From Fredinandcohnia onubensis (GTDB lineage: Bacteria; Bacillota; Bacilli; Bacillales; Bacillaceae_L), in the NCBI RefSeq assembly GCF_031181385.1, contig NZ_JAPSKV010000007.1:62001-126000 (forward strand): a stretch of 64,000 nucleotides of DNA. Direction: 5' to 3'. The translations under genes and the position numbers were made by a program. Shown here piece by piece: positions 4,777 through 22,434 of the stretch. How positions within the stretch are numbered: position 1 is the stretch's first letter; every line of letters begins with the position of its first letter. The notes below the pieces were generated by a model. That model ran no database searches, was not told the DNA's origin, and was given only the letters and a program-made list of their open reading frames with translations.

Positions 4777-6105
4777 CTATGAAGCCGTGTGTAGAAACTT
4801 GATCGAGAATATGGAGACACCAATTTTCCTACAGATTGTTACGTAATGCAGAAGGGCAAGTAAAACAGCACCCATATTCATGCCTATGATGATCCCTTCC
4901 ATTTGCAGTGTTTGAAGGGACCCTAAGGCGAACATAATCCCAAAAGATACGACAGTTGACCATACATTATGGATAAATGCATCCTTTACCAACCCTAACC
5001 CGATTAAATAGGCTTGCATCGGGATTAAGAAGAAATGGAATAAAAAATATGGCCACAACATTTGCAAATACACGGTGGCTGATGATGATTCAAAGAATAT
5101 ATGTGTAAGTGGTTCTGCAAAATAGTAAAAAATCACACAGGCTGGAACCCCGTATAGGAAGGTCATTCTCATTACCTGTTTGAGTAGGTTTTGCAGCATT
5201 GACATATCTCTCTTCGAATAGGCTTCTGATACGGTTGGAATTAACACGATTAGCAATGAATGGGCAATGAACGCTGGAAAAAAGCCTATTGTTAATGCGA
5301 CCCCTGTCATCAATCCAAAATGCTCCGTTGCGACCGCTGCGGGCATGCCTGCTTTTAGAAGAGCCGCTTTAATTAAAAATGGTTGAACGGCATGTGAAAT
5401 CGCATGAAAAATCCGCATTCCAGTTGTCGGTAAGGAAACAGCCAGTAGGTTTTTGCGTACAGCTTTTCCACTTAATGATGATGTCGGCCGATGGCCTAAT
5501 CTGCGATAGTGAATGAGATATTCATATCCTAAATAACCAAATACGATTAAATCACTTGCAACAAGTGTACATAATGCGATAAGGATTGAAGTATGAATTT
5601 CAAATTCAAGTAATTGATAAATAAACACTAACAAGATTAACTGGACTGCTTTACGAAGGAAATTCGCAAATGCAATTCGCCCCATCGATTGAATGCCCAT
5701 AAAATATCCCCTGGCAATTGATAGAAACGAGACGATGGGAATAAACAAGATGACGAGCCATCTAACAAATGGATGGTAATCATCGAAAACGGGGATAACT
5801 GGCAGAATCACAAATGCAAACGAAATAATAATCGCTGTAAATACAGTTGTTAAAACGGTGGCATGCTTTAGCATACTCTTGTGATACCTGTCCTCTTTTT
5901 CGGCAATAAATTTGGATATGGAAATAGGCAGCTCAAGACTTGCCAATATGACAACTAAAAAGATTGAAGGCAAAATGGTCATATATAATCCCATTCCGTG
6001 CCCACCGAGCTCTTTTGCCAGAACGAGATTGATTAAGAACTCCACACACTCACCAATAAATGCTGCGATAACCAGTAATAATGTTCCTTTAAAGAATGTA
6101 TTCAT
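4777..6105 (-). CDS. SpoVB/YkvU-like lipid-linked oligosaccharide flippase (MOP superfamily)
   Basis: The start was moved to ATG 6105, where AAGGGG sits 7 nt upstream and the first helix begins (MNTFFKGTLLLVIAAFIGE). The 442-aa protein has about 12-14 predicted membrane helices and polysaccharide-biosynthesis/MATE-like motifs, including LELPISISKFIAEK after the second helix and AFIAHSLLIVLIPTVSEAYS in the middle. SpoVB-type proteins move lipid-linked precursors across the membrane for spore cortex or wall synthesis; this one is nearer in length to YkvU (about 445 aa) than to SpoVB (about 518 aa). It is monocistronic. The specific substrate is not visible. Confidence 0.82.
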   Translation of the reverse strand: MNTFFKGTLLLVIAAFIGECVEFLINLVLAKELGGHGMGLYMTILPSIFLVVILASLELPISISKFIAEKEDRYHKSMLKHATVLTTVFTAIIISFAFVILPVIPVFDDYHPFVRWLVILFIPIVSFLSIARGYFMGIQSMGRIAFANFLRKAVQLILLVFIYQLLEFEIHTSILIALCTLVASDLIVFGYLGYEYLIHYRRLGHRPTSSLSGKAVRKNLLAVSLPTTGMRIFHAISHAVQPFLIKAALLKAGMPAAVATEHFGLMTGVALTIGFFPAFIAHSLLIVLIPTVSEAYSKRDMSMLQNLLKQVMRMTFLYGVPACVIFYYFAEPLTHIFFESSSATVYLQMLWPYFLFHFFLIPMQAYLIGLGLVKDAFIHNVWSTVVSFGIMFALGSLQTLQMEGIIIGMNMGAVLLALLHYVTICRKIGVSIFSIKFLHTAS

Positions 6106-6249
6106 CCTGTAACCCCTTATTATTTTTTTCAGTACTAAATAGATATGAGACAAGTCCAAAAATTATTTAACGAAAAGAAAATTTTTACTGTACTACTAAT
6201 AAAGTACCCTTTCCAACCGCTTAATTTCTCGTTTATAATTATAATAATG

Positions 6250-6345
6250 TGTTTGGAAACCATAGGGACGGTTCTACTGGTCCCTATTGATTTTATTTTT
6301 TTGAAAATAAGTAACCAGGTGAACCGTCCCCCTGGTCCTACTAAA
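6250..6345. repeat. Dispersed palindromic repeat, copy A (GGGACGGTTC type)
   Basis: The left end CCATAGGGACGGTTCTACTGG and the right end (reverse complement CCAGGGGGACGGTTCACCTGG) form inverted termini around an AT-rich centre. Copy B at 7975-8085 has the same ends with a different centre, on the other side of yfmM. The structure suggests a small palindromic non-autonomous element. Confidence 0.75.
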
Positions 6346-6367
6346 CTTATGAAAAAGGTGTAAATAG

Positions 6368-7924
6368 ATGAGTATATTAACAGTTTCAAATGTGAGCCAT
6401 GGTTTTGGTGATCGTGCAATCTTTAATGATGTTTCATTTCGTCTTTTAAAAGGTGAACACATAGGGTTGATCGGTGCAAATGGTGAAGGTAAATCAACAT
6501 TTATGAATATCATCACTGGAAAGCTTGAGCCTGATGCAGGGAAAATTGAATGGTCAAAAAATGTTCGTGTTGGATACCTTGACCAGCATACGGTTCTTGA
6601 AAAAGGAATGACCATCCGCGATGTATTAAATAATGCCTTCAAATATCTATTTGATATGGAAGCGGAAATGAATGAAATATACGGAAAAATGGGTGACGCA
6701 ACTCCTGAAGAACTTGAAAAAATGCTTGAGGACGTTGGAACTATTCAGGATACCCTTACAAACAATGACTTCTATGTTATTGATGCGAAGGTAGACGAAA
6801 TTGCCCGAGGGCTGGGTTTAGAGGATATCGGTCTTGAACGTGATGTTCAAGATTTAAGTGGTGGTCAGCGTACAAAGGTATTGCTTGCGAAGCTTTTACT
6901 TGAAAAGCCAGATATTCTATTACTGGATGAGCCTACCAACTATTTGGATGAGCAGCACATTATCTGGCTTAGACGTTATCTTCAAGAATATGAAAATGCG
7001 TTTATCCTGATTTCGCATGATATTCCATTTTTAAATAGTGTAATCAACCTGATTTATCATATGGAAAATCAAGAGCTTAATCGCTATGTTGGGGATTATG
7101 ATAACTTCCAGAAGGTCTATGAAGTGAAAAAACAACAGCTTGAGTCTGCTTATAAAAAGCAGCAGCAAGAGATTTCTGAGCTTAAAGACTTTGTTGCTCG
7201 AAACAAGGCCCGTGTTTCCACACGAAATATGGCAATGTCTCGCCAAAAGAAGCTTGATAAAATGGAAGTAATTGAGCTAGCGAAGGAAAAGCCGAAGCCA
7301 GAATTCAATTTTAGAACAGGTAAAACGTCAAGCAAGCTTATTTTTGAAACGAAGGATCTTGTGATTGGGTATGATGATCCACTTTCAAAACCGCTTAATC
7401 TTCGTATGGAAAGAGGTCAAAAGATTGCGTTGGTTGGAGCGAACGGAATCGGAAAAACAACTCTATTACGAAGTATCCTTGGTATGAACAAGCCACTATC
7501 TGGATCAGTTGAGCTAGGTGAGAACCAAGAAATCGGCTATTTTGAACAAGAAATTAAAGAAGCTAACTATAATACATGTATTGAGGAAATTTGGAGTGAA
7601 TTCCCTTCCTTCAACCAGTATGAAGTTCGTGCAGCACTCGCAAAATGTGGCTTGACAACAAAGCATATCGAAAGCAAGGTTGAAGTATTAAGTGGTGGGG
7701 AAAAAGCAAAAGTACGTCTTTGTAAATTAATTAATCGAGATACAAACATCCTTCTTCTTGACGAGCCAACAAACCATCTTGATGTTGACGCAAAAGACGA
7801 ACTTAAAAGGGCCCTTAAAGAATATAAAGGAAGCATCCTTATTATTTGCCACGAACCTGAATTTTACCACGATGTTGTGACAGATGTATGGAATGTTGAA
7901 TCTTGGACAACAAAAGTATTTTAA
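6368..7924 (+). CDS. yfmM: ABC-F ATPase, YfmM type
   Basis: The 518-aa protein has two ABC cassettes and no membrane segment: Walker A GANGEGKST (about residue 37) with LSGGQ, then Walker A GANGIGKTT (about 357) with LSGGE, separated by a charged linker helix (about 240-300). Length and start (SHGFGDRAIFNDVSFRLLKG) match B. subtilis YfmM. ABC-F proteins act on the ribosome E site, resolving stalled translation or conferring antibiotic protection. AAGGTG lies 8 nt before ATG 6368. The gene is monocistronic, ends in its own terminator, and is bracketed by two copies of a palindromic repeat. Confidence 0.9.
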   Translation: MSILTVSNVSHGFGDRAIFNDVSFRLLKGEHIGLIGANGEGKSTFMNIITGKLEPDAGKIEWSKNVRVGYLDQHTVLEKGMTIRDVLNNAFKYLFDMEAEMNEIYGKMGDATPEELEKMLEDVGTIQDTLTNNDFYVIDAKVDEIARGLGLEDIGLERDVQDLSGGQRTKVLLAKLLLEKPDILLLDEPTNYLDEQHIIWLRRYLQEYENAFILISHDIPFLNSVINLIYHMENQELNRYVGDYDNFQKVYEVKKQQLESAYKKQQQEISELKDFVARNKARVSTRNMAMSRQKKLDKMEVIELAKEKPKPEFNFRTGKTSSKLIFETKDLVIGYDDPLSKPLNLRMERGQKIALVGANGIGKTTLLRSILGMNKPLSGSVELGENQEIGYFEQEIKEANYNTCIEEIWSEFPSFNQYEVRAALAKCGLTTKHIESKVEVLSGGEKAKVRLCKLINRDTNILLLDEPTNHLDVDAKDELKRALKEYKGSILIICHEPEFYHDVVTDVWNVESWTTKVF

Positions 7925-7928
7925 TTTT

Positions 7929-7968
7929 AAAAACGCAAAGCACCCCATTCAGGTGTTTTGCGTTTTTT
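7929..7968 (+). terminator. Rho-independent terminator of yfmM
   Basis: AAAACGCAAAGCACC pairs with GGTGTTTTGCGTTTTTT, leaving a short loop and a U tract directly after the yfmM stop. Confidence 0.85.
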
Positions 7969-7974
7969 CATATG

Positions 7975-8085
7975 AACCATAGGAACCATAGGGACGGTTC
8001 TATTGGTCCTCAATGGACACTATTATTAAATTACATCCACGGGAACCAGGGGAACCGTCCCCCTGGTTCTACCCTGGTTCTAAAA
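7975..8085. repeat. Dispersed palindromic repeat, copy B (GGGACGGTTC type)
   Basis: It shares CCATAGGGACGGTTCTATTGG at the left and GGAACCGTCCCCCTGG at the right with copy A at 6250-6345. The centre is unrelated and a short extra CCCTGGTTCT follows. The two copies flank yfmM. Confidence 0.75.
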
Positions 8086-18623: not shown

Positions 18624-18652
18624 AAAAGCCGACTCCCAGAGTCGACTTTTTT
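18624..18652 (+). terminator. Terminator between convergent regulator and kinase genes
   Basis: AAAAGCCGACTC and GAGTCGACTTTT (one mismatch) enclose a two-base loop and end in TTTTTT. It overlaps the 3' end of the kinase gene on the other strand. Confidence 0.8.
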
Positions 18653-19880
18653 ATTGCGTAATCGGTAATATAATCTCTACCTTTGTTCCTTTTCCTGGTT
18701 TACTATTGATGGTAATTTTCCCATGATGGTCTTCGATGATTTTTTTAGAAACCATTAATCCTAAACCTGTTCCATAATCCTTTGTTGTAAAGAATGGTTC
18801 GAAAAGCTTTTCCTGTACATCCTCAGGAATTCCACAGCCCTCATCACTAATGAGAATTGATACCATGTTATTGGCGGTTTGGCTACCTCTAATCGTTAAC
18901 ATACCACCCTCTGGCATGGATTCAAAGCTATTTTTAATGAGATTTAAGAAAACCTGTTTTATTTGTTTCTCATCACAATCGATATCCAGAACAGCCTCAT
19001 CCATTTTCAGGTCAATTATAACATTCCTCGCGTTCTCAGATTGCTCAAAGATCGAAAGGACATATTCAATAAGTTTCTTTACATTACATTTCGTCACATT
19101 AATTTGCCTTGGTTTGCCGATAACCAGCAAATCATTAAGGATTGAATCAATTCGATCAATTTCTTGCTCCATGATCATATATTGCATTTCATCCTCTTTA
19201 TGTTTTTCCCGCTGAAGCTGGGTAAACCCTTTTAAGGACGCCAACGGATTACGAATTTCATGTCCAACCGTAGTCGCCATCTGCCCGACAAATGCAAGCT
19301 TTTCCTTCTTGCGGAGCTCCTCATGCGTTTCCGAAAGTGCTTCGATATACGAGTAGAAACGGGTTAGGAGGATGTAGGCAATAAGCGCAAACATACCAAT
19401 CAGTAGAATTATTGCCAATACAATACCATTTCCTAATAATAGACCAATCAATCCATATTTCATTACAATTGCAATTGTAACTGTCAAAAAGAATCTCTTA
19501 TTTATAAAGATGGGAGAGAATAGCAAAAAAGCAATTTCAGCTGCATTTCCACTCTTAAAAGGTTCATTACTCCCCCAATAAGTGACTACATCATCAATTC
19601 CAGTGACTAGAAGATAAGACAACACATAAAAATATTTGACTAAATGTAGCTTACCTATTTTCCTTAAATAGAATGAGACTGGAATAAGGACAATTATTAA
19701 GATATAGGCTCCATATGCAAAATCAGTAGGAAGACCAATCTTAGCGTTAATAAATATAGGGTATATAAAATAATAAAAGAAATCATATAACAGGAAAATG
19801 CTATAAAACAATATTAAATATAGACGTAGCGCCTTCTTCTCTTCATGTAAAAGAAGAGAGTTATGTTTTAGATAAGACAT
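18651..19880 (-). CDS. 6-TM sensor histidine kinase of the peptide operon
   Basis: The start was moved to ATG 19880, with GTGAGG 6 nt upstream; the product is 409 aa. About six membrane helices (about 18-178) carry YDFFYYFIYP, DDVVTYWGS and SGNAAEIAFLLFSPIFINKRFF, nearly all also present at the same positions in the HD-GYP protein two genes upstream. HisKA follows with phospho-acceptor His207 (GHEIRNPLASLKGF), then HATPase with DEGCGIPEDV and GTGLGL. No response regulator lies in the operon, so it may feed the Spo0 phosphorelay like other HEIRNPL kinases. It is the last gene of a four-gene operon and starts 38 nt after the protease. Peptide sensing is inference from context. Confidence 0.88.
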   Translation of the reverse strand: MSYLKHNSLLLHEEKKALRLYLILFYSIFLLYDFFYYFIYPIFINAKIGLPTDFAYGAYILIIVLIPVSFYLRKIGKLHLVKYFYVLSYLLVTGIDDVVTYWGSNEPFKSGNAAEIAFLLFSPIFINKRFFLTVTIAIVMKYGLIGLLLGNGIVLAIILLIGMFALIAYILLTRFYSYIEALSETHEELRKKEKLAFVGQMATTVGHEIRNPLASLKGFTQLQREKHKEDEMQYMIMEQEIDRIDSILNDLLVIGKPRQINVTKCNVKKLIEYVLSIFEQSENARNVIIDLKMDEAVLDIDCDEKQIKQVFLNLIKNSFESMPEGGMLTIRGSQTANNMVSILISDEGCGIPEDVQEKLFEPFFTTKDYGTGLGLMVSKKIIEDHHGKITINSKPGKGTKVEIILPITQ

Positions 19881-19918
19881 ATCTATCCTCACTTAGTTAA
19901 ATGATTATGCATTTTTCA

Positions 19919-21121
19919 TTATATATTATTTTCCTCACCTGAGTATATAGTCCTATATTCTCTCTTACTTTCGAATTTTTTAAATAATGAGTAAGTAAGA
20001 AGCGGAAGGAAGATCAATATCTGCGCAGAGAAAACGAAAGCATCCCAGAACTTTAATGATGATAATGACTCAGTAAACCCTGGGAGAACATTTATCATAA
20101 TATATACTAATTGAGGTAAATAGTAAAAGCCAAACATAGAGAAGGTCAACAAAATTCCTATCAAAAAGAAAAAGGAATAGAAAACAATCACTCTGTTATC
20201 TGTTGCGTTTTGTTTTCTGTTAAATAGTCCTCTTATAAATTCAATACCACTTTCCATCAGATTATAATTCCCTGTACTATTTTCAAAAACATAATAAAGA
20301 TCTGTTTTCATATAAATACAGCATTGATAGATGATTCGAATCACAATATCGAAAGTAATCAAACCAATAATTCCATGAATAATCTCATTTGAAAATAGAT
20401 TAGACACTTTTAAGACTAGGGTAACTAAAAGTATGAAACTATCAAAATATATTCCTGCTAAAAATAATAGGTTTCGTTCCTTTGAAGAAAGCTTCCATGC
20501 TTGTGTAAGGTCCGTTTCGAACACGACAAAAAACAGTCGATTACCGATTTGCAATTTTGTTGGAAGATCAAATGAACGGATAGCCAAAATATGTCCACTT
20601 TCATGTAAAAAGATTAAAACAATTGAAATTCCGGCATACAAAAGAATATTAAACATCATTGTATCAAAGACAAATAAATCCTGATAACGAGGAAAAAGAT
20701 TAGGATCTTTCACAAATAGAAAGAGATTCACTAACAAAAATAATGGATAGAAAAAACGAGTAAACCGATTAAAGAAAACCTTCCCTAGTTTCGGTGATAT
20801 CCAATTAAATCCTAAGTCTTCATAATTACGTGTCTTTTCTATTCTTACTTTTGCTCCATCTACCATTTCTACTAAATCTAAATCCAGCAATTGTTGGCCA
20901 AAATCAAGTAGATCAATCTCTTCACCTGCATATTTTTCGATGAGTAGGTGTTCTATTTCACCAAGTGATAAACCTTTGTTAATCAACTCAATTGCATCAA
21001 CACAGACTACTGGCATTTCATAAAATTCATGAGTTACTAAATCTTCGATAATATAATTCTTATTATCTTTACGTATCACTAACTCGTGTAAACATAAAAT
21101 AGAATCAGCAGTTAATTGCAA
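19919..21121 (-). CDS. PqqD-like (RRE) domain fused to M50-type membrane metalloprotease
   Basis: The 400-aa protein starts at TTG 21121 behind AGGTG; no later ATG is plausible. Residues about 20-88 have the PqqD-like pattern (HEFYEMPVVCVDAIELINKG, then LSLGEIEHLLIEKY and LLDFGQQLLDLDLVE), typical of RiPP recognition elements. Residues 120-395 hold about six to seven membrane helices with the zinc motif HESGH at 173-177 and a second conserved AGIYFDS. This is the layout of putative peptide zinc metalloproteases in RiPP loci. The gene follows a 25-aa peptide gene, so the RRE may bind that peptide and the protease cut it. No radical SAM or ABC exporter gene is nearby. Confidence 0.82.
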   Translation of the reverse strand: MQLTADSILCLHELVIRKDNKNYIIEDLVTHEFYEMPVVCVDAIELINKGLSLGEIEHLLIEKYAGEEIDLLDFGQQLLDLDLVEMVDGAKVRIEKTRNYEDLGFNWISPKLGKVFFNRFTRFFYPLFLLVNLFLFVKDPNLFPRYQDLFVFDTMMFNILLYAGISIVLIFLHESGHILAIRSFDLPTKLQIGNRLFFVVFETDLTQAWKLSSKERNLLFLAGIYFDSFILLVTLVLKVSNLFSNEIIHGIIGLITFDIVIRIIYQCCIYMKTDLYYVFENSTGNYNLMESGIEFIRGLFNRKQNATDNRVIVFYSFFFLIGILLTFSMFGFYYLPQLVYIMINVLPGFTESLSSLKFWDAFVFSAQILIFLPLLTYSLFKKFESKREYRTIYSGEENNI

Positions 21122-21145: not shown

Positions 21146-21179
21146 ATAAAAGGATGCCCCATTTTTCGTAAGCATCCTT
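21146..21179 (-). terminator. Partial terminator between the peptide gene and the protease gene
   Basis: AAGGATGC and GCATCCTT form an 8-bp stem, followed on the minus strand by TTATTATG. Placed just after the peptide stop, it would give more peptide mRNA than protease mRNA, a common layout in peptide loci (inference). Confidence 0.55.
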
Positions 21180-21189
21180 CTTTCATAAA

Positions 21190-21267
21190 TTATCCTCTTG
21201 GGCCTCCGGGTAAAAAAGCACACCACCAACAAGTAGCTTTGATTTTTTTAAGCTTTTTGATTATCAC
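21190..21267 (-). CDS. 25-aa Cys/Trp/Gly-rich peptide, candidate RiPP or signalling peptide
   Basis: The gene is too short for the ORF track. GTG 21267 has an excellent ribosome binding site (GCAGGAGGTG, spacing 7), and the frame ends at TAA 21190. The product has a basic N-terminus (IIKKLKKIKAT) and a C-terminal core CWWCAFLPGGPRG with two cysteines flanking two tryptophans. It starts 18 nt after the HD-GYP stop and precedes a PqqD-like/M50 protease, so its context is that of a processed peptide. It is not a ComX, Phr, AgrD or YydF sequence that I recognise. Whether it signals, kills or is modified is unknown. Confidence 0.75.
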   Translation of the reverse strand: MIIKKLKKIKATCWWCAFLPGGPRG

Positions 21268-21285
21268 TTTTTTCACCTCCTGCCA

Positions 21286-22434
21286 TCAAACTGGATTTTT
21301 TTGTATATCTATCCATTGCGGGTAAACCTTTTTAAATAATGCAACTAGATTAGGATCAAATTGAGTACCTTCCCCTTGAAGGATTCGATTATAAGCTTCT
21401 TCAACAGGTAGTGCTCCTCGATATGACCGGGATGAAGTCATTGCATCAAAGGCATCTGCTATTGCAGTGATTCGAGCATTTAAAGGAATATCATTTCCTT
21501 TTAGCTGGTCGGGATATCCTTTACCATCCCATCTCTCATGATGCGATCTAATAATACTTATACTCGAGCCAAGACCTTTCACATTTTTTACTGCTTCTTC
21601 TCCAACGACTGGATGTGTTTTTATAATTTCATACTCTTCATTCGTTAATTTTGCTGGTTTCATAAGTATAGAATCGGGAATATTGACCTTACCTATATCA
21701 TGCAGCAAACAAGCATAATTAAAAGATTTTAATTCATCCTGAGAAAAAGCTCCTAACTCTTTCGCTAATACCATTGCATATTTAGCAACTCTCTCACTAT
21801 GACCTCTAGTATAAGGATCTTTTAATTCAAGTGCTGCGATAACACCTTTTACTATCCCTTCCATCTGTTGATCATAAGCTGTGCTTAGTGCATTCACATA
21901 TCCATAAAATCTGTTAAGTAGTATATATGCAACTATAGCCAGTACCGTAGTTAATACAATTGGTAGAGCTACCATTGTAGTCCCAAGTATTGCTCCACTC
22001 AATATATATTTAACTGTTAATCCTATAGAAACTACCCAGAAATATTTTTTATTTACAAAGATTGGAGAAAATAGGACTAGAAAAACCTCAACTGCGTTCC
22101 CACTTGAGAACAATCCAGGTTTGTCCCAGTAAGTGATTAGATCATTAACAAAACTTAAAATAGTATATGCAATGAAAAAATAGTATTTTGTTAAATGCTG
22201 TTTATTCCTATGATTATTATAGAATATTACTGGAATTAGCATTGCCATAACTAGGTAAATAACGTATATAAACTTGTTAGGAAATCCTGTAGCTATAGCA
22301 GTCTCATCACTTGGATAAATAAAATAAAAAAAGATATCATATGCTACCAAGATAATAACAAATAAGATACTATACCATATAGTAGTTCTTTTCTCCTCGT
22401 ATAGTAATACCAATCTTTTATTCATTTTCTGCAT
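21286..22434 (-). CDS. 6-TM HD-GYP domain protein (putative c-di-GMP phosphodiesterase or relative)
   Basis: I chose ATG 22434 (GGAG 8 nt upstream), giving 382 aa. About six membrane helices (about 18-180) share YDIFFYFIYP (32-41), NDLITYWDK and SGNAVEVFLVLFSPIFVNKKYF with the histidine kinase of the same operon. The C-terminal HD-GYP domain (about 190-370) keeps GHSERVAKYA, HDIGK (245-249), HP and HHERWDGKGYP, the usual metal and GYP motifs. HD-GYP proteins hydrolyse cyclic dinucleotides or serve as signalling hydrolases. It is the first gene of the operon HD-GYP, peptide, PqqD/M50, kinase. Confidence 0.87.
   Translation of the reverse strand: MQKMNKRLVLLYEEKRTTIWYSILFVIILVAYDIFFYFIYPSDETAIATGFPNKFIYVIYLVMAMLIPVIFYNNHRNKQHLTKYYFFIAYTILSFVNDLITYWDKPGLFSSGNAVEVFLVLFSPIFVNKKYFWVVSIGLTVKYILSGAILGTTMVALPIVLTTVLAIVAYILLNRFYGYVNALSTAYDQQMEGIVKGVIAALELKDPYTRGHSERVAKYAMVLAKELGAFSQDELKSFNYACLLHDIGKVNIPDSILMKPAKLTNEEYEIIKTHPVVGEEAVKNVKGLGSSISIIRSHHERWDGKGYPDQLKGNDIPLNARITAIADAFDAMTSSRSYRGALPVEEAYNRILQGEGTQFDPNLVALFKKVYPQWIDIQKNPV

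Follow-up and report, generated by a model that had tools for sequence, protein, structure and literature searches.

Between the genes of a membrane sensor protein and a membrane protease of Fredinandcohnia onubensis lies an open reading frame of only 25 codons, which raises two questions: is it a gene and, if so, what is its product for? The stretch of DNA analysed here (64,000 nucleotides, hereafter the window) carries the following features around it:

18651..19892, minus strand: MASE12 histidine kinase, orphan (Pfam MASE12 2.1e-33, HisKA, HATPase)
19919..21121, minus strand: RRE-M50 protein, 400 aa (AlphaFold2, Foldseek, weak HMMs, invariant residues)
20605..20591, minus strand: HExxH of RRE-M50, residues 173-177, of a site-2-protease-like membrane metalloprotease
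21121..20858, minus strand: PqqD-like RiPP recognition element (RRE), about residues 1-88, N-terminal domain of RRE-M50
21147..21178, minus strand: terminator-like hairpin AGGATGC...GCATCCTTTT between peptide and protease genes, a partial attenuator
21190..21267, minus strand: CWWC peptide precursor gene, 25 codons and TAA, GTG start (translation, homologues, codon statistics)
21267..21232, minus strand: leader VIIKKLKKIKAT of the CWWC peptide
21231..21220, minus strand: CWWC of the peptide
21219..21193, minus strand: variable tail AFLPGGPRG, then stop
21276..21281, minus strand: Shine-Dalgarno AGGAGG of the peptide gene, 8 nt before GTG
21286..22434, minus strand: MASE12 membrane sensor fused to an HD-GYP c-di-GMP phosphodiesterase domain (Pfam, motifs, fold)

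The minus-strand ORF running from 21267 to 21190 translates as VIIKKLKKIKATCWWCAFLPGGPRG. The stop codon of the HD-GYP gene lies 18 nt ahead of it and the next gene 68 nt behind it, and AGGAGGTG stands 8 nt 5' of its GTG start in the window sequence. The initial annotation had proposed a real and unusual peptide gene with a strong ribosome binding site and a basic, leader-like N-terminus, to be given up if homologous loci showed stop codons or lacked a Shine-Dalgarno sequence. Our homologue search began with the downstream RRE-M50 protein, and a peptide profile built from 33 homologues was searched against 398 genomes of the order, with an E-value of 1.8e-11 in the window's own genome and E < 1e-7 in 42 of the 398. 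The peptide is present in eight genomes of the genus (Fredinandcohnia and relatives), at 32 loci of named genomes (Fredinandcohnia, Neobacillus, Gracilibacillus, Ornithinibacillus and others) and in one additional genome from outside the order; once duplicates were removed, the total was 67 distinct loci. In the homologous loci the gene is open and again preceded by a strong Shine-Dalgarno sequence, and the basic leader and CxxC are kept in 67 of 67, with mostly synonymous changes. The gene is thus confirmed as real, far beyond chance. It is unusual as well: none of 32 members matches any NCBIfam model at E <= 10, which agrees with the earlier remark that the peptide resembles neither ComX, AgrD, Phr nor YydF, and no PHROGs family matches it.

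Conservation is unevenly distributed along the precursor, which is 18-26 aa long across the family and has a leader charge of +4 to +6. According to codon statistics on the 63 loci with standard spacing, pN/pS is 0.11 for the conserved core (MKIRKLKKxKxTCWWC) and 0.17 for leader codons 2-12, but 0.75 for the first three tail codons. CWWC is invariant in these 63 members, with zero nonsynonymous changes, yet its Cys codons vary, and entropy goes from 0 at C13-C16 to about 3.3 bits at tail position 17. The conserved feature is thus CWWC and not PGG. The tail is hypervariable (2-10 residues), from YF at the short end to PYIPGWKPFG, with IYVGK, WFM and PFYNNWPR as further examples, so that the PGG-rich, Gly-Pro tail first taken as defining is limited to the Fredinandcohnia genus; of the Cys, Trp and Gly positions singled out for a conservation check, those of CWWC hold while the tail Gly varies. 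Some variants have shifted cysteines (TGLCWVCWFM, TSLCWICWYGG and ATTCWWCWPFGL). No hydrophobic signal segment was found in the precursor, and we dropped the idea of a type I toxin because the peptide has no hydrophobic membrane segment.

The initial annotation missed that the peptide gene is the middle member of a fixed cassette: the order MASE12-HD-GYP, peptide, RRE-M50 is found in 67 of 67 loci. The gap between the HD-GYP stop and the peptide start is typically -4 to +37 nt (median 1), with many ATGA overlaps of -4. Among the 398 genomes of the order, the peptide and the close RRE-M50 subfamily coincide completely (42/42 genomes versus 0/356), and MASE12 is present in 41 of the 42 peptide genomes versus 10 of the 356 others (Fisher p about 4e-45). 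As a contig start truncates the locus of the one exception (G079), and MASE12 in the 10 other genomes belongs to kinases only, without HD-GYP, every MASE12-HD-GYP protein seen adjoins a CWWC peptide. In a search beyond the order, 1 of 300 genomes of the phylum had MASE12, namely the window's own. When all neighbours were clustered, any further gene was shared by 17 of the 67 loci at most. Thus, no modification enzyme is conserved, which speaks against the enzymatic thioether, lactone or prenyl modification suggested at first; no dedicated exporter is conserved among the 67 loci either.

A few loci depart from the standard layout. The MASE12-HD-GYP gene is doubled in tandem 5' of the peptide in one of them (L176). 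In a Neobacillus mesonae strain (L034, about 6064..7985), an insertion of roughly 1.9 kb parts the peptide gene from the RRE-M50 gene, both of which are open; from the end of a reverse-transcriptase-like ORF, it is apparently a group II intron. A candidate loss of the cassette in a member of the genus (G012) was rejected, as the assembly ends there instead, the contig stopping inside the MASE12 kinase gene. Within that gene, the end of the contig (C40; L169, 5300..5318) reads CTGTCTCTTATACACATCT, the sequence of a transposase adapter, and is by this sequence assembly contamination mimicking cassette loss.

The frame of the MASE12-HD-GYP gene is open from 22509, and its likely start is the ATG at 22434, where orthologues begin. 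Both halves of the protein are recognized by Pfam (MASE12 1.7e-37, HD_5 1.4e-37). The HD, HH and GYP motifs are intact (H270, D271, K274, H323, H324 and 331-GYP-333 are invariant) and the fold matches 4r8z, 4mcw and 9rbz, including PA4781 and c-di-GMP-bound DvhD domains, so that catalytic residues and fold are both those of an HD-GYP phosphodiesterase. The sensor is modelled as about six long helices with pLDDT mostly >90, for which structure comparison returned no solved fold relative. The window's genome uses c-di-GMP, since it encodes 19 GGDEF domains. A second MASE12 protein of the window is a histidine kinase with no response regulator beside its gene. Models of the sporulation kinase KinD and of AtoS-type kinases come nearest to its catalytic part (the NCBIfam KinD score of 212.8 bits is below the cut-off), and the motif HEIRNPLASLKGFTQL occurs in the kinase branch. 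Such kinases lie in the flanks of 41 of the 67 loci (32 upstream, 8 downstream and 1 on the other strand).

On the other side of the peptide gene, the HExxH and K272-T273-D274 of the RRE-M50 protein are invariant. PqqD and M50 HMM matches are weak, and its profile has no match by sequence in the PDB. The AlphaFold2 model (mean pLDDT 80.6) is more informative. Foldseek matches the N-terminal domain to the TbiB1-leader complexes 5v1u and 5v1v (probability 0.99-1.0, TM(target) 0.6-0.68, E-values 0.1-0.4) and to the RREs of McbB and CteB, which places an RRE fold next to a precursor, as in RRE-dependent RiPP systems; the membrane part matches SpoIVFB (8vjl) weakly. No M50 relative was detected in viral contigs.

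The peptide and protease genes are separated by a hairpin, GGATGC...GCATCC followed by TTTT at 21178..21148 in the window. A hairpin with a T-run is found 3' of the peptide in 55 of the 67 loci, whereas only 1 of 67 shuffled controls has one (a strict filter misses the window's own hairpin owing to its stem-extension rule). Of the 67 loci, 54 retain the stem GGRTGY...RCATCY, a conservation beyond the needs of a plain terminator. The partial terminator noticed earlier is thus borne out as a structure. It would end most transcripts after the peptide, in which case receptor and peptide would be made in excess of the protease.

If the peptide were a signal, its variable part should be tied to its receptor. 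Within one polypeptide, MASE12 diverges faster than HD-GYP (mean identity 41% versus 71.5%). In a partial Mantel test given HD-GYP and M50, tail distance is correlated with MASE12 distance (r 0.15, p 0.0005), and the correlation is weaker without close pairs (still p 0.013); it is small, and shared ancestry is only partly removed by the Mantel test, being controlled indirectly. The similarly divergent M50 core, used as a control, is not correlated with the tail (r -0.04, p 0.85), and the RRE domain is weakly so (r 0.11). The Fredinandcohnia genus offers close comparisons, with HD-GYP identities of 96-98% and MASE12 identities of 70-73% where tails differ but 93% where they are the same. For example, L009 and L011 differ in their tails and share 98% identity in HD-GYP and 73% in MASE12, while L010 and L011 have identical tails and share 93% in MASE12. 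Within a locus, the two MASE12 sensors were not found to evolve in concert (similarity within and between loci is 0.346 each), and there is thus no sign that both sensors read the same ligand.

A conserved leader and CWWC joined to a hypervariable tail, the faster divergence of MASE12 and the tail-MASE12 correlation together suggest a signal and its receptor. From these sequence comparisons and the models, we consider the gene product a likely pheromone precursor, from which RRE-M50 would release a small secreted peptide that MASE12 would sense. The basic leader MKIRKLKKxK would dock on the RRE of the neighbouring protein, in favour of which we count the conserved acidic E26 and E35 of the RRE and the positive charge of the leader. 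Cutting close to the TC of TCWWC, the M50 part would then remove the leader and free at the membrane a short peptide, made of CWWC and a strain-specific tail; the proteolytic release by the adjoining PqqD-like protein that had been envisaged is accordingly likely in that RRE-M50 accompanies the peptide everywhere, with cleavage itself predicted. M50 would serve as protease and exit route together, and the two cysteines may pair as a disulfide outside the cell. The mature peptide would be sensed by the six-helix membrane domain of MASE12 and would shift c-di-GMP breakdown up or down; as MASE12 is fused directly to HD-GYP in every locus, no response regulator would be needed. Where a second MASE12 protein is present, in about 60% of loci, it may relay the signal to a KinD-like orphan kinase, which would probably feed the Spo0 phosphorelay. 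Further points count against a pheromone: M50 proteases normally cut inside membrane segments, of which the precursor has none; no exporter is dedicated to the peptide; and about 40% of loci have no adjacent MASE12 kinase.

Other functions were weighed against the same evidence. A short ORF with adjacent Trp codons and a terminator-like hairpin directly 3' recalls an attenuation leader peptide, in which ribosome stalling at the Trp-Trp/Cys codons would set hairpin read-through into the protease and kinase genes. We regard this as highly improbable: conservation at the amino-acid level spans the whole basic leader beyond WW, the distance from WW to the hairpin varies from 22 to 51 nt, no Trp or Cys biosynthetic genes lie downstream, the peptide and protease genes parted by 1.9 kb in N. 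mesonae are both still open, and an RRE fused to the neighbouring protein predicts a peptide substrate. A non-secreted microprotein or small CxxC redox or metal sensor, with the HD-GYP protein or the protease as its intracellular target, would account for the invariant CxxC, for the overlap with the HD-GYP gene (translation is likely coupled) and for the missing exporter. It leaves unexplained the hypervariable tail, the link of this tail to the membrane sensor but not to the catalytic domain, and the RRE-protease, and we hold it to be quite unlikely.

An antimicrobial or membrane-active RiPP of the epipeptide kind, for which the sensors would provide self-detection or immunity and no quorum sensing, is unlikely too, although the peptide is cationic and Trp-rich, M50 processing is also that of epipeptides, and liaFSR/pspA-like envelope-stress genes lie beside the cassette in the Fredinandcohnia genus. 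The lia neighbourhood is limited to this genus (8-9 of the 67 loci), the 67 loci have no ABC exporter, immunity or modification gene in common, the exclusive partner is a c-di-GMP enzyme, and tail hypervariability coupled to a sensor better suits pherotypes.

Gram-positive peptide pheromones are known to act via histidine kinases or cytoplasmic regulators. On balance, we lean towards a new class in Bacilli, in which an RRE-guided intramembrane protease alone would mature a minimal CWWC pheromone and the receptor would be a one-protein MASE12-HD-GYP phosphodiesterase, a switch that would lead directly from peptide to second messenger, with pherotypes specific to the strain and MASE12 as the peptide-sensing domain. 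If so, with c-di-GMP phosphodiesterase activity built into a dedicated peptide receptor, cell density would be linked to the motile-sessile switch through a single step, MASE12 would gain a testable ligand, and an RRE could serve solely to feed a protease. The predicted ligand can be read from each genome as CWWC with its tail. In open-access papers we found no description of a CWWC peptide/MASE12/RRE-M50 system and no ligand for MASE12.

Among known systems, DSF/RpfC-RpfG is a cell-cell signal ending in an HD-GYP phosphodiesterase, but its signal is a fatty acid perceived by a sensor kinase with a receiver-HD-GYP protein, whereas sensor and HD-GYP form one membrane protein here and the would-be signal is a peptide. 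With agr (AgrBDCA), the cassette shares a basic or amphipathic leader, a hypervariable signal part, a membrane peptidase and a multi-helix receptor with a fast-evolving sensor; it lacks AgrB (C75), an AgrD homologue, a thiolactone-forming cysteine protease and AgrA, and its receptor would be MASE12-HD-GYP. ComQXPA and agr thus share its logic but no homologous precursor or peptidase. Neither a ComQ prenyltransferase nor an RRNPP regulator (as for Phr, SHP or PapR) is among the shared neighbours of the 67 loci. Closest in processing are the epipeptides of Bacillus subtilis (yydFGHIJ/epeXEPAB), in which a short soluble precursor, likewise adjoined by a membrane M50 protease, is matured and probably exported by it, EpeP/YydH being the presumed cleavage and export protein of the epipeptide (PMC10885120, PMC7026026). 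Unlike them, CWWC loci have neither a radical-SAM epimerase nor an ABC immunity transporter, the 67 loci sharing only MASE12 proteins and RRE-M50, and the precursor is shorter, unrelated in sequence and accompanied by dedicated MASE12 receptors. The pearlin proteases TglG and TmoG, too, are M50 enzymes of the membrane with a small RiPP carrier peptide as substrate (PMC10885120), but what they free are single modified C-terminal residues, and signalling receptors are absent.

A second, distant RRE-M50 subfamily occurs with an RRE-ThiF enzyme in 18 loci (L141-L158, e.g. L141 1..5398, L145, L147), many of which carry 1-5 tandem genes for peptides of 20-27 aa, each with a strong Shine-Dalgarno sequence. 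These peptides (MKIxVKKxEKLxPT-tail, often with PYGG at the end, MKIEVKKTEKLKPTFIPYGG among them) resemble the CWWC precursors in size, in their basic MKI..KK leader and in their short variable tail, and several loci have RRNPP-type HTH-TPR regulators nearby. Unlike the CWWC cassette, they have the ThiF adenylyltransferase and cytoplasmic RRNPP regulators, and neither CWWC nor MASE12. From its sequences, this looks like another peptide-signal family, the C-terminal GG being a possible ThiF substrate, and its tandem peptides and RRNPP-type regulators support RRE-M50 proteins as peptide-signal maturases. In streptococci, ThiF RiPP loci are reported near Rgg regulators (PMC12445099). Distant RRE-M50 relatives, annotated as hypothetical proteins, were also found on plasmids of Streptomyces, with 24% identity across 97% of the query length.

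Finally, MASE12 kinases also occur without a CWWC peptide or RRE-M50 (L160-L168, in genomes G078, G111, G140, G260, G340, G378, G273, G313 and G332). They are possibly orphan or eavesdropping receptors, and six of them belong to a genus whose sister species hold the whole cassette.
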